Positions 4,195 to 39,782 of a DNA stretch of 45,918 nt are shown here, in pieces. Each line of letters opens with the position of its first letter. The first letter of the stretch is position 1. Source of the stretch: Paludibacter sp. (lineage in GTDB: Bacteria; Bacteroidota; Bacteroidia; Bacteroidales; Paludibacteraceae); NCBI GenBank assembly GCA_020049335.1, contig JAIFKX010000228.1, forward strand, positions 1-45,918. Reading direction: 5' to 3'. The translations under genes were made by a program, and so were the position numbers. Below the pieces are notes generated by a model, which was not told the origin of the DNA, did not search any database, and was given only the letters and a program-made list of their open reading frames with translations.

Positions 4195-5271
4195 ATGAAC
4201 ATATTAATCACCGGTATTCACGGTTTTGTAGGCACCAATTTAGTGCAGGCTTTAAAAGCAAACCATAGCATTTATGGATTGGATATTGTTAGCCCCCAAA
4301 AGGAGGGAGTTGTGCATACTTTTGGGTGGAATGACTTGGATGCTTTACCTCCAATTGATGCAATAATTCATTTAGCTGGCAAAGCGCACGATACAAAAAA
4401 TCAGACCGTAGCTCAAACGTACTTCGACATTAACACCGGTCTCACACAGAAAATATACAATTGGTTTAGGGCTTCGTCGGCAACGAAATTTATCTTTTTC
4501 AGTTCGGTAAAAGCCGCTGCCGATAGGGTAGAGGGCATTTTAACCGAAGAAGTGGAGCCTACACCGCTTGGACCTTATGGCGAAAGCAAAATTGCAGCGG
4601 AGAAATATATTCTTGTAGAGACGCAATGCTTTGCGTCTGAAAATACCAAAAAGACGCAAAGCATTGCGTCTGATTCTGAGACGCAAAGCGTTGCGATTGA
4701 TTCTGAGACGCAAAGCATTGCGATTGATTCTGAGACGCAAAGCATTGCGATTGATTCTGAGACGCAAAGCATTGCGTCTCTACGGCAAAATTATTACATT
4801 CTTCGTCCCTGCATGATTCATGGGCCAGGAAATAAGGGAAACCTAAATTTGCTGTACAATGTGGTAAAACGAGGAATACCATATCCGTTGGGTGCTTTCG
4901 AAAATCGTCGTTCGTTTTGTTCTATCGATAATCTGAGTTATGTAATTAATGGGCTAATTGCGAACGATGTGGAAAGTGGAGTTTACAATGTATGCGACGA
5001 CGAAACTGTTTCGACCAACGAGTTGATTGAAATTATTTCATCTTCGCTTGGAAAGGAAAGGCAAATTTGGCATTTAAATAAAAAATTTATTGAATTGGCA
5101 GCCAAAGTAGGTTCGGTTTTGCATCTGCCACTCAACACCGAGCGTCTTCAAAAATTAACAGAAAACTATGTAGTGTCCAATGCTAAAATTAAAAAAGCAC
5201 TTGGTATAAAAGCTATGCCCGTATCGGCATCCGAGGGTTTAATAAAAACGCTGAAGAGTTTTAGGGAATGA
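4195..5271 (+). CDS. NAD-dependent epimerase/dehydratase (extended SDR), with an in-frame repeat insertion
   Basis: MNILITGIHGFVGTNLVQAL Rossmann motif, FFSSVKA, YGESKIAAEKY (YxxxK), RPCMIHGPGNKGN. Start taken at 4195; the ORF track starts at 4189. Confidence 0.85.
   Translation: MNILITGIHGFVGTNLVQALKANHSIYGLDIVSPQKEGVVHTFGWNDLDALPPIDAIIHLAGKAHDTKNQTVAQTYFDINTGLTQKIYNWFRASSATKFIFFSSVKAAADRVEGILTEEVEPTPLGPYGESKIAAEKYILVETQCFASENTKKTQSIASDSETQSVAIDSETQSIAIDSETQSIAIDSETQSIASLRQNYYILRPCMIHGPGNKGNLNLLYNVVKRGIPYPLGAFENRRSFCSIDNLSYVINGLIANDVESGVYNVCDDETVSTNELIEIISSSLGKERQIWHLNKKFIELAAKVGSVLHLPLNTERLQKLTENYVVSNAKIKKALGIKAMPVSASEGLIKTLKSFRE
4615..4783. repeat. 169-bp repeat element with 24-bp perfect terminal inverted repeats, inside the epimerase CDS
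   Basis: GTAGAGACGCAATGCTTTGCGTCT (4615-4638) is the exact reverse complement of 4760-4783. Internal 27-bp direct repeats at 4669-4695, 4696-4722, 4723-4749 and 4750-4776 encode (I/S)DSETQS(I/V)A. Confidence 0.95.
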
Positions 5272-36360: not shown

Positions 36361-37041
36361 ATGATCGGAACTATTGTCAATACACTCGCCGTCGTAGCAG
36401 GCGGAACTATCGGAATACTACTTAATAAAAGCCTGCACCCACGTTTCAAACAAATTTATTTTCAAGCCACCGGGTTATTTACCATTGCCATTGGGATACT
36501 TATGATGAAGGACATGCAAAATGTGCTAATCGTTGTTGCATCTATAGCTGTGGGAGCATTGCTTGGCGAGTGGATGCGTCTTGAAGATAGGGTAGAGGTG
36601 TTGAGTGAATTACTCAAAAAACGTTTGAAAATTGGTAACGAACGCTTTACAGAAGGATTGGTAACGGCTTTTATGCTTTTTTGTGTGGGAGCTATGACCA
36701 TTGTTGGGGCGGTGGACGAGGGTATCGGACGCTCATCCGAAGTGTTGCTTACAAAATCGTTGATGGATGGATTTTCATCCATTTTATTAGCTTCAGCCTT
36801 TGGTGTGGGAGTTGTTTTTGCGGCAATTCCTTTATTTTTATTTCAGGGCGGTATAAGTTTGGTTGCTATGTATGCCGCTTCGTTTTTTAGTGCCGAAATT
36901 ATTCAGGGATTAAGCTCCGTTGGCGGAGTATTATTAATAGGACTTGGAATAAATATATTAGAATTGAAGAAATTGCGTATTGTAAATATGCTTCCTGCAC
37001 TCTTATTGGTAGTTTTATTTTTGTGGATAAGAGCTATTTAA
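36361..37041 (+). CDS. DUF554 family membrane protein
   Basis: MIGTIVNTLAVVAGGTIGILLNK, GLFTIAIGILM, FCVGAMTIVGAVDEGI, KSLMDGFSSILLAS. Start moved to 36361, downstream of a TATATTTG box at 36323-36330. Confidence 0.9.
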   Translation: MIGTIVNTLAVVAGGTIGILLNKSLHPRFKQIYFQATGLFTIAIGILMMKDMQNVLIVVASIAVGALLGEWMRLEDRVEVLSELLKKRLKIGNERFTEGLVTAFMLFCVGAMTIVGAVDEGIGRSSEVLLTKSLMDGFSSILLASAFGVGVVFAAIPLFLFQGGISLVAMYAASFFSAEIIQGLSSVGGVLLIGLGINILELKKLRIVNMLPALLLVVLFLWIRAI

Positions 37042-37415
37042 GATACAATCTCTAACTCATTTATTCTTTGAAAATGTTTCAAATTTAGAGTTGCCAATGG
37101 TAATTTATAACTCATACTGGTTGCAGCAATCAAAATATCAGCCAAATCAATCATTTTGTTTTTCTTTCTTAGCTGTTTATAAATTTCAATTGCTTGAAGA
37201 GAAGATTGCAAATCAAAATCTATTACTTCAATGGAATCCAAAAATTCATTCCAAAAAGAATCTTGTTGTTTATTGCTACCCGAAAAGATTTCGAAATGCG
37301 TTATAATAGAAATTGCAAAATCATTTTCTGTAGAAGCTAATTTATAGAAATACGTGCTTTCTTTATTGACAGCTCGAAATAATTCAATTAATACTGAAGA
37401 ATCTAAAAGTATCAT
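37038..37415 (-). CDS. vapC: PIN-domain RNase toxin (VapC-like)
   Basis: MILLDSSVLIELF, SIITHFEIFSGS, MIDLADILIAATSMSYKLPLATLNLKHFQRI. Confidence 0.85.
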   Translation of the reverse strand: MILLDSSVLIELFRAVNKESTYFYKLASTENDFAISIITHFEIFSGSNKQQDSFWNEFLDSIEVIDFDLQSSLQAIEIYKQLRKKNKMIDLADILIAATSMSYKLPLATLNLKHFQRINELEIVS

Positions 37416-37645: not shown

Positions 37646-37868
37646 GAGTCAATATTTTTTTTTTCAATGTTTTTTCGTTGCAAATATACAAAACTTCTAT
37701 TTGATTGTATAACAAAACACATTTAAATATTGTTTGCAGATAAAAACCAGCTACGCTTTAAGTGGATTTTGAAACGAAGCTGGTAGTTTTTTTGTGGATA
37801 AAAGCCATTTACTAACTTTATCAACAGCTTGTTGAAACTTTTTTTATGGCTGTATCAAATTAGTTTTG

Positions 37869-37876
37869 TATTTTTG
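37869..37876 (+). promoter_or_regulatory. -7 promoter box for a dnaB transcript
   Basis: TATTTTTG (TAnnTTTG) directly upstream of the 16-bp array; -33 element not clear. Confidence 0.45.
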
Positions 37877-37889
37877 GTCTCCGATTTTG

Positions 37890-37985
37890 GTTCATCTGTT
37901 GATTGGTTCATCTGTTAAATAGTTCATCTATTAAATAGTTCATCTGTTAAATAGTTCATCTGTTAAATAGTTCATCTGTTGATTG
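37890..37985 (+). repeat. 16-bp tandem array, six units
   Basis: GTTCATCTGTTGATTG / GTTCATCTGTTAAATA / GTTCATCTATTAAATA / GTTCATCTGTTAAATA x2 / GTTCATCTGTTGATTG. Confidence 0.97.
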
Positions 37986-38029
37986 GTTAATATAGAAATC
38001 TGGAAAAAGTAAAATGTTATTAGAATTAA

Positions 38030-38222
38030 TCAATCAATCAACCAATTAATCAATTAATCAATCAACCAATTAACCAATCAACCAATTAACCAATCAACCA
38101 ATTAACCAATCAACCAATTAACCAATCAACCAATCAACCAATCAACCAATCAACCAATCAACCAATCAACCAATCAACCAATCAACCAATCAACTAATTA
38201 ACCAATTAACTAATTAACCAAT
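38030..38222 (+). repeat. 8-bp (locally 16-bp) tandem array AATCAACC/AATTAACC
   Basis: Eight consecutive perfect AATCAACC units at 38124-38187; alternating AATTAACC-AATCAACC upstream; degenerate edges. Confidence 0.97.
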
Positions 38223-38243
38223 CACAAATCACTAACAAAAAAT

Positions 38244-39782
38244 ATGGCCGAAAAGCGCAATTATTCAAAAAAAAATACCATTCAGCCTGTTCCTGCGAAT
38301 GAATATGGCAAATTACCACCGCAAGCTCCCGAATTGGAAGAGGCTGTTCTTGGGGCTATTATGCTCGAAAAAGATGCTTATTCCATTGTTTCGGAAATTC
38401 TGAAGCCAGATTGTTTTTACAAAATGACGCATCAAAAGATTTTTGAAGCCATAATGACACTCGCTTTGCATCAAGAACCGATTGATATGCACACCGTTAC
38501 GGAACAATTGCGCAAAAATGGTAATATCGACGATGTGGGAGGGGCATATTATATTACTTTGCTTACTGCTAAAGTTTCGTCAGCAGCTCACTTAGATTAT
38601 CATGCACGTATTATTGTACAAAAATACTTAGCACGTGAGTTAATTCGTGTTTCTTCGGAAATTCAAACCAAAGCTTTTGACGACAAAACAGATGTGGACG
38701 ATTTGATGCAGGAAGCGGAAGGTATGTTGTTCGAACTGTCGCAAAATAGTCAGAAAAAGGATGTTACCCAAATAAATCCGGTTATCGAAGAGGCTCGTAA
38801 ACGTATGCAAATTGCTGCTACAAAGCAAGGAGCAAGTGGTGTGGCGAGTGGTTTTCATGCGTTAGACAAAATTACTTCGGGCTGGCAACGCTCCGACCTA
38901 ATTATCATCGCTGCTCGTCCAGCAATGGGGAAAACGGCTTTTATTCTATCCATGGCAAAAAACATGGCGGTAGATAATAAAGCGCCTGTGGCTGTTTTTT
39001 CGCTCGAAATGTCGAATGTGCAATTGGTTAATCGTTTGATAATGAATGTGTGCGAACTCGAAGGGGAGAAAATTAAAAACGGTCAGCTAGAAAAATTCGA
39101 ATGGGATAAATTTGACCGTGATATTAATAACTTGTTAGATGCGCCTGTTTTTGTAGACGATACGCCCAGTTTGTCGGTTTTCGAATTGCGAAGCAAAGCG
39201 CGCCGCCTAGTAAAAGAGCACAAAGTACAATGTTTGATTATTGACTATTTGCAGTTAATGAATGCCAGCGGAATGAGTTTCGGCAGCCGTGAACAGGAAG
39301 TAAGTATTATTTCCCGATCGCTCAAAGGTCTGGCTAAAGAGTTGGATATTCCGATTATTGCCCTATCGCAGCTAAATCGTGGTGTAGAGGGACGTACGGG
39401 ACACGAAGGAAAACGTCCGCAATTGTCCGACCTTCGCGAATCGGGTGCTATTGAGCAGGATGCCGATATGGTGTGCTTTATTCACCGCCCTGAGTATTAT
39501 AAAATTACCGAAGATGCGCAGGGAAATTCATTGATTGGTTTAGCCGAAATTATTGTGGCAAAACACCGTAATGGTGCAACTGGCGATGTATTGCTCAAGT
39601 TTAAAGGAACTTATGCCAAATTTATGAATAAAGATGATATCTCTGGCGACGACCAAGATAGCGGCTATCAAACTATTCCATCCAAAATGAATGACACATC
39701 GTTTTATGGTGAGGGACAGAAAAGTAATCCGGCTGCTTTGTTGGGTGGCAGTAGCAGCAGTATGGATGAACCTCCATTTTAA
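38244..39782 (+). CDS. dnaB: Replicative DNA helicase DnaB
   Basis: PPQAPELEEAVLGAIML, AARPAMGKTAFILSMAKN, VFSLEMSNVQLVNRL, IIDYLQLM, LSQLNRGVEGR. Confidence 0.97.
   Translation: MAEKRNYSKKNTIQPVPANEYGKLPPQAPELEEAVLGAIMLEKDAYSIVSEILKPDCFYKMTHQKIFEAIMTLALHQEPIDMHTVTEQLRKNGNIDDVGGAYYITLLTAKVSSAAHLDYHARIIVQKYLARELIRVSSEIQTKAFDDKTDVDDLMQEAEGMLFELSQNSQKKDVTQINPVIEEARKRMQIAATKQGASGVASGFHALDKITSGWQRSDLIIIAARPAMGKTAFILSMAKNMAVDNKAPVAVFSLEMSNVQLVNRLIMNVCELEGEKIKNGQLEKFEWDKFDRDINNLLDAPVFVDDTPSLSVFELRSKARRLVKEHKVQCLIIDYLQLMNASGMSFGSREQEVSIISRSLKGLAKELDIPIIALSQLNRGVEGRTGHEGKRPQLSDLRESGAIEQDADMVCFIHRPEYYKITEDAQGNSLIGLAEIIVAKHRNGATGDVLLKFKGTYAKFMNKDDISGDDQDSGYQTIPSKMNDTSFYGEGQKSNPAALLGGSSSSMDEPPF

Follow-up and report, generated by a model that had tools for sequence, protein, structure and literature searches.

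Oriented octamer repeats of a Paludibacter genome and their two-armed occurrence upstream of dnaB

Introduction

Intergenic tandem repeats with a preferred orientation towards the neighbouring genes have so far been described separately, in Xanthomonas and Nostoc in connection with quadruplexes (PMC4692102) and in Beggiatoaceae in connection with a binding protein (PMC4679880). The former are quadruplex-forming heptamers, GGGNATC and GGGGA(C/T)T (Rehm et al. 2015, PMC4692102). Scattered through the genome, they seldom fall in coding sequence. In the 50 bp upstream of ORFs, the G-rich strand is the antisense one, and around stops, again within 50 bp, it is the sense strand; some repeats overlap the stop codon, the adjoining genes have no particular function and increased stability has been reported (PMC4692102). 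The latter are TAACTGA direct repeats of marine Beggiatoaceae, mostly in 2-6 copies, which also occur in a few Bacteroidetes, among them Paludibacter propionicigenes (MacGregor 2015, PMC4679880). They stand mostly 'forward' and immediately upstream of the starts of genes without recognisable Shine-Dalgarno sequences, essential genes included; one stop-adjacent set is reversed in Flexibacter litoralis, and contigs often end in the repeats (PMC4679880). As cited in the same paper, long simple sequence repeats (Mrazek et al. 2007) and the AGAT repeat of Moraxella uspA2 are slippage-prone, and uspA2 is an example of a gene whose expression can be tuned by a repeat that separates the promoter from the start codon. 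Bacteroidota lack Shine-Dalgarno sites and need an open initiation region, and extra AUGs are under-represented near their starts (PMC3155529, PMC6847099).

Here we analysed a stretch of 45,918 nt from a Paludibacter sp. genome (contig JAIFKX010000228.1), hereafter the window, in which a long G-free repeat precedes the gene of the replicative helicase DnaB. Repeats of the dnaB type extend the known oriented intergenic repeats by a unit other than the classical quadruplex-forming ones, two opposed arms and a rapid change of units between species. Our literature searches returned no description of the AATYAACC unit or of AATCAACC arrays in Paludibacter.

Results

Direct reading of the window confirmed the tract given in the preliminary description, which is devoid of G on the + strand and abuts the dnaB start (Table 1). 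The flanking Gs are found at 38023 and 38246, the latter being the third base of the dnaB ATG (38244-38246). Within the tract, TRF reports a period of 8, 89% matches to the unit AATCAACC and 24.6 copies, a copy number that is provisional in this draft assembly; the eight perfect consecutive units reported earlier occupy 38124-38187. The dnaB product has homologues of 97% identity in G004, the closest relative, and of 95% in G021. The length of the tract is not due to chance. No longer G-free tract exists in the 584 kb sampled from its own genome (G000), which contains, at another site, a tract of 219 nt made of the same AATYAACC-type repeat. Across 99 Bacteroidales dnaB leaders, G-free runs that extend to the ATG have a median length of 6 nt, the longest apart from the present one measuring 36 nt.

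Table 1. Positions of the dnaB locus features in the window and of the 11-mer arrays in genome G005
Feature	Position	Strand	Remarks
Putative dnaB promoter -7 element, TAGTTTTG TATTTTTG, Bacteroidota TAnnTTTG type	37861..37876	+	motif match
Left, G/T-type arm, GTTCATCTGTTAAATA / GTTGATTGG units	37887..37991	+	TRF period 16 at 37890-37980
Linker between the two arms	37992..38023	+	promoter-like element absent from linker
G-free tract	38024..38245	+	AATCAACC/AATTAACC array inside, 38028-38224
dnaB, replicative DNA helicase, 512 aa	38244..39782	+	Pfam DnaB_C 1.7e-104, DnaB N-domain 1.8e-31
11-mer arrays of G005	L113:10048-10159; L123:13835-13970; L124:18073-18173; L126:15384-15503		

Upstream of the tract lies a divergent G/T-type arm that the preliminary description had missed. 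It is inverted relative to the AATCAACC array and 70-82% complementary to several registers of it. Both arms are preceded by a promoter-like block, TTATCAACAGCTTGTTGAAA followed by TTTTGTATTTTTG, which aligns across species; a 32-mer of this block, around the palindrome described below, is identical between the window and G021. The TAnnTTTG element represents the only such + strand sites between 37017 and 39107. In 27 of 28 same-genus loci, T(A/T)nnTTTG is located 30-82 nt before the dnaB ATG; in the window, the distance from the promoter element to the ATG amounts to 375 nt. In G021 it is only 82 nt, and the leader carries another repeat of 9 nt, AACTTTACA. G004, whose dnaB contig ends at the gene, gave no match to the conserved dnaB promoter. 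Judged from the motif, transcription would start near 37881-37884. Given that the promoter motif lies upstream of both arms and is conserved in relatives, the array most likely resides in an expanded dnaB 5' leader of ~360 nt. Such a leader would be unusually long compared with the roughly 25-75 nt of relatives. That the tract belongs to the dnaB leader, as the preliminary description considered, is probable, but the leader would begin ~360 nt upstream and include the complementary G/T arm. An arrangement of the uspA2 type, with the repeat between promoter and start codon, may apply here, a genus-conserved promoter motif lying upstream of the array; unlike dnaB, uspA2 is a phase-variable surface-protein gene.

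Further upstream, the palindrome TCAACA-GCT-TGTTGA (37821..37835) overlaps a DnaA-box-like sequence, TTATCAACA. Since the form TCAACA-N3-TGTTGA occurs upstream of dnaB in 14 of the 29 same-genus loci scanned, it is a candidate operator. A PIN-domain gene (37041-37415, - strand) lies just upstream of dnaB, with a small ORF on its own upstream side. A stretch 87% identical to this pair is found on another G004 contig (C79), separately from the dnaB promoter, which suggests a mobile unit resembling a toxin-antitoxin system.

Folding predictions bear on the earlier claim that the leader would have almost no self-structure. The claim applies to the G-free tract with the start of dnaB, which shows practically no fold (MFE -0.9 kcal/mol), but probably not to the full leader of ~360 nt, which is predicted to be structured (MFE -50.7 kcal/mol, z -4.4) with its last ~40 nt before the ATG unpaired. 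Opening the region -30..+10 in the full leader costs 2.8 kcal/mol, and 10.1 kcal/mol after an in silico flip of the array. Flipping the start-side family arrays in the same way raised this cost in 26 of 27 cases (median from 3.7 to 11.8 kcal/mol) and the number of start-like codons from 32 to 405, an outcome that is largely a consequence of G content. The sole exception is the only array that is natively of the G/T type, which stands 26 nt away from the start codon. In Prevotella bryantii, a hairpin 20 nt upstream was found to leave expression unreduced, according to the literature; the arms lying upstream in the dnaB leader would thus not have to do damage.

The array is not specific to dnaB. 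It is one of a family of intergenic octamer repeats, AATYAACC and close variants, that is lineage-specific and had likewise been missed. In ~0.58 Mb of the own genome examined there are 39 family runs, on many contigs; family hits number 93 in G000, 240 in G005, 125 in G009 and 33 in G004, with 0-7 in other genomes and none in G021. Like the repeats of Rehm et al., they are intergenic tandem units of 6-9 nt with a genome-wide distribution, none of the 118 family runs in the sampled stretches of G000, G005 and G009 being coding. They fill many spacers beside varied genes, including those between co-directional genes, which removes the reason for calling the position before an essential gene unusual. 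Unlike those heptamers, the unit is an octamer, AATYAACC/GGTTRATT, found in Bacteroidota in up to 24 units and more. Judged from the sequence, the arrays also lack quadruplex G tracts, the GGTTGATT unit having GG pairs only, and their sizes range widely without the four-unit mode.

The family follows a strong orientation rule. Arrays detected by TRF were each attributed to the closest gene end, provided that this lay no more than 30 nt away. The sense strand is of the A/C type beside start codons (25:0) and of the G/T type beside stop codons (37:1), as in the placement rule of the heptamers. The contrast yields a pooled Fisher p of 1e-16, arrays within one genome not being independent, and holds in three genomes (G000, G005 and G009) and on both gene strands; in 200 kb of G016, arrays were too scarce for a statistical evaluation. 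These statistics rest on ~1.5 Mb from the three genomes, with G000 contigs partly selected for arrays and genes called by a simple longest-ORF rule with ATG starts only. Convergent spacers conform, with G/T in four of four stop-side arrays. In co-directional spacers, the median distance between A/C arrays and the start is 6 nt, which resembles the short tandem units of the TAACTGA type oriented towards starts; for G/T arrays, the median relative to the stop is -0.5 nt, with 16 of 32 overlapping the stop codon, and none lies within 25 nt of a start. Repeats with other units adhere to the rule less closely (GC p 0.03, AT p 0.001). Simple local base composition was rejected as the cause, above all at stops: array-free spacers show a weak skew at the start side (C>G 0.13-0.20) and about zero at stops. 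A search for C-type arrays hidden inside gene 3' ends, which would have biased ascertainment, found none. Among the 59 spacers with at least two arrays, 34 are arranged G-first/C-last and 5 C-first/G-last. The dnaB locus follows the former plan, the 5' end of its leader standing where the stop codon would be.

Comparison of orthologous spacers revealed a patchy occurrence of the arrays. At L062, the G000 array is missing from G004 and G021, both of which have shorter G/T 9-mer-like repeats instead. At L068, both arms exist in G004 with different units, and a short version in G021. The genes flanking the L067 spacer overlap in G021 and are 2 nt apart in G002; other species carry various repeats there, for example AAAATTG in G035, whereas G016 has AATCAACC opposed by a G/T stretch and G014 has TGTGATGA followed by AAACACGAAACGCG. 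From the differing repeats at these three sites, spacers thus appear to be rewritten quickly, and orientation tends to persist. At L302, L307, L308 and L067, the palindrome CCCGATAGCTATCGGG or close variants of it recur across several species in one and the same spacer, upstream of an ABC-permease-like gene.

Discussion

We consider it probable that the G-free tract is a tolerated repeat expansion, that is, spacer DNA grown by slippage and filtered for orientation by Shine-Dalgarno-independent initiation. At dnaB, the tract would be the right-hand A/C arm of a two-armed repeat grown between the conserved promoter and the start codon. The starting points are the observed family, its exclusion from coding sequence, the orientation rule, the patchy presence and varying units of the arrays at orthologous sites, and the place of the dnaB array with respect to the promoter motif. 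In the proposed mechanism, arrays would gain or lose units through slippage or unequal exchange and would persist only at sites where the damage is small. Beside a start codon, the A/C strand as mRNA would keep the initiation region open and add no AUG, GUG or UUG. It would be tolerated there because initiation in Bacteroidota does without Shine-Dalgarno pairing and requires the start region to be open. Since flipping closes the modelled start region, we infer growth by slippage together with a filter on orientation. At dnaB itself, the upstream arms could pair with the start codon remaining accessible, and any effect on expression is likely a modest by-product rather than a dedicated switch. 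The homogenised perfect units at dnaB could also reflect selection for length.

The stop-side orientation (37:1, and four of four in convergent spacers) is not predicted by a filter on translation initiation. Stop codons within the arrays could contribute to it, given the 16 of 32 G/T arrays that overlap a stop. GGGNATC repeats obey the stop-side rule as well, yet by our reading the GGGNATC unit holds no stop codon. The start-side orientation fits Shine-Dalgarno-independent initiation, and the stop side is left without a good explanation. That the placement rule also applies in Bacteroidota, to a unit which is no classical quadruplex former, argues for a more general cause. The present family also differs from the heptamers in having often two opposed arms per spacer, in the weaker adherence of other units to the rule, and in a high turnover between species as opposed to the increased stability reported there. 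In contrast to the TAACTGA repeats, its unit is AATCAACC/AATTAACC and not TAACTGA, which has a G, and a two-armed arrangement is not described there as a rule.

Several other explanations address the dnaB locus as a functional site. A hairpin, in which the G/T and A/C arms pair to join the stop (or the 5' end) to the start, or to form a duplex for RNase III or attenuation, is fairly unlikely. It draws on the prevalence of the G-first/C-last plan and on the complementary arms and low folding energy at dnaB. In G005, moreover, arms of one spacer match each other better than arms of different spacers do (p 1e-4), but this signal comes largely from a separate 11-mer family; in G000 no such difference is seen (p 0.63), which speaks against a hairpin under selection, and many spacers have one arm only. 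We regard as unlikely a dedicated tuner of dnaB, in which slippage in unit number would shift leader length, ribosome access or mRNA stability and thereby create heritable variation in the helicase. The array does lie within the probable leader, its homogenised perfect core is typical of slippage, and repeats of other kinds recur upstream of dnaB in relatives: an unrelated 105-nt G-free stretch of TTATACT-type 7-mers close upstream of dnaB in another Bacteroidales genome (L233, contig CASFUX010000135.1) and short arrays of other units at L033, L038, L040, L042 and L053. However, most dnaB leaders are without an array, the same repeats stand beside many unrelated genes and in convergent spacers, and the modelled start region is already open, so that a change in unit number would matter little. 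In the nearest complete relative, the repeat at dnaB has another unit, a 9-mer. The leader is probably long and has two opposed arms; we see no evidence of dedicated control of the helicase, and the proposal of an unwinding or replication element found no support.

Sites for Rho (rut) are usually described as C-containing, G-poor RNA. A reading in which the long C-containing, G-free RNA loads Rho for conditional early termination in the dnaB leader agrees with this description, the tract being G-free with regular C, and the composition (C>G) and absent structure of the isolated tract fit too; in the full leader, part of the tract pairs. A search for Rho gave a homologue of 448 bits, which falls short of the curated cut-off, and avoiding such RNA after stop codons would account for the stop-side rule. 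We nevertheless judge Rho very improbable, for the A/C side sits where translation begins at once and shields the RNA, and the rule also holds in the four of four convergent arrays, where termination would be harmless. A mobile copy-and-paste repeat (MITE- or REP-like) with a fixed insertion orientation would derive the placement from mechanism and not from selection. Independence of gene strand at starts and stops is what a rule at the DNA level would give, and arrays look like insertions at gene junctions that overlap in G021. Still, no fixed ends, fixed length or flanking duplications were noticed at the array sites read, unit length varies between genomes (8, 9, 11 and other nt) and the neighbouring sequence differs from site to site, which makes this origin decidedly unlikely. 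An assembly artefact is hardly credible: the own assembly is fragmented (332 contigs, 83% complete) and the G004 contig stops at the dnaB start, but the same unit occurs on many separate contigs and in other genomes, and repeats are also present at orthologous spacers in G004.

Beyond the tolerated expansion favoured above, a broader proposal would be that orthologous spacers of one genus are repeatedly rewritten with lineage-specific units under an orientation rule independent of the unit, with G/T after the stop and A/C before the start. We hold this to be tentative and rather doubtful. The lineage-specific units concerned are the 8-mer AATCAACC, the 9-mer AACTTTAYA, the 7-mer AAAATTG, TGTGATGA and others. 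If true, units would have to be spread or homogenised by a process active across the genome, and both gene ends would share a strand-specific constraint, of which current models of translation initiation explain the start side only.

Two further kinds of arrays were observed. G005 has a second family with units of 11 nt, e.g., GGTTGGCTGGG and CCCTCGAAACC, in arrays that face each other with 4-12 nt between them; these arrays lie in long spacers, hundreds of bases from genes, and form strong hairpins, many with locus-matched arms. In the window, positions 4652-4776 contain a tandem array of the 27-nt unit AGACGCAAAGCATTGCGATTGATTCTG, with 4.6 copies and 95% matches.
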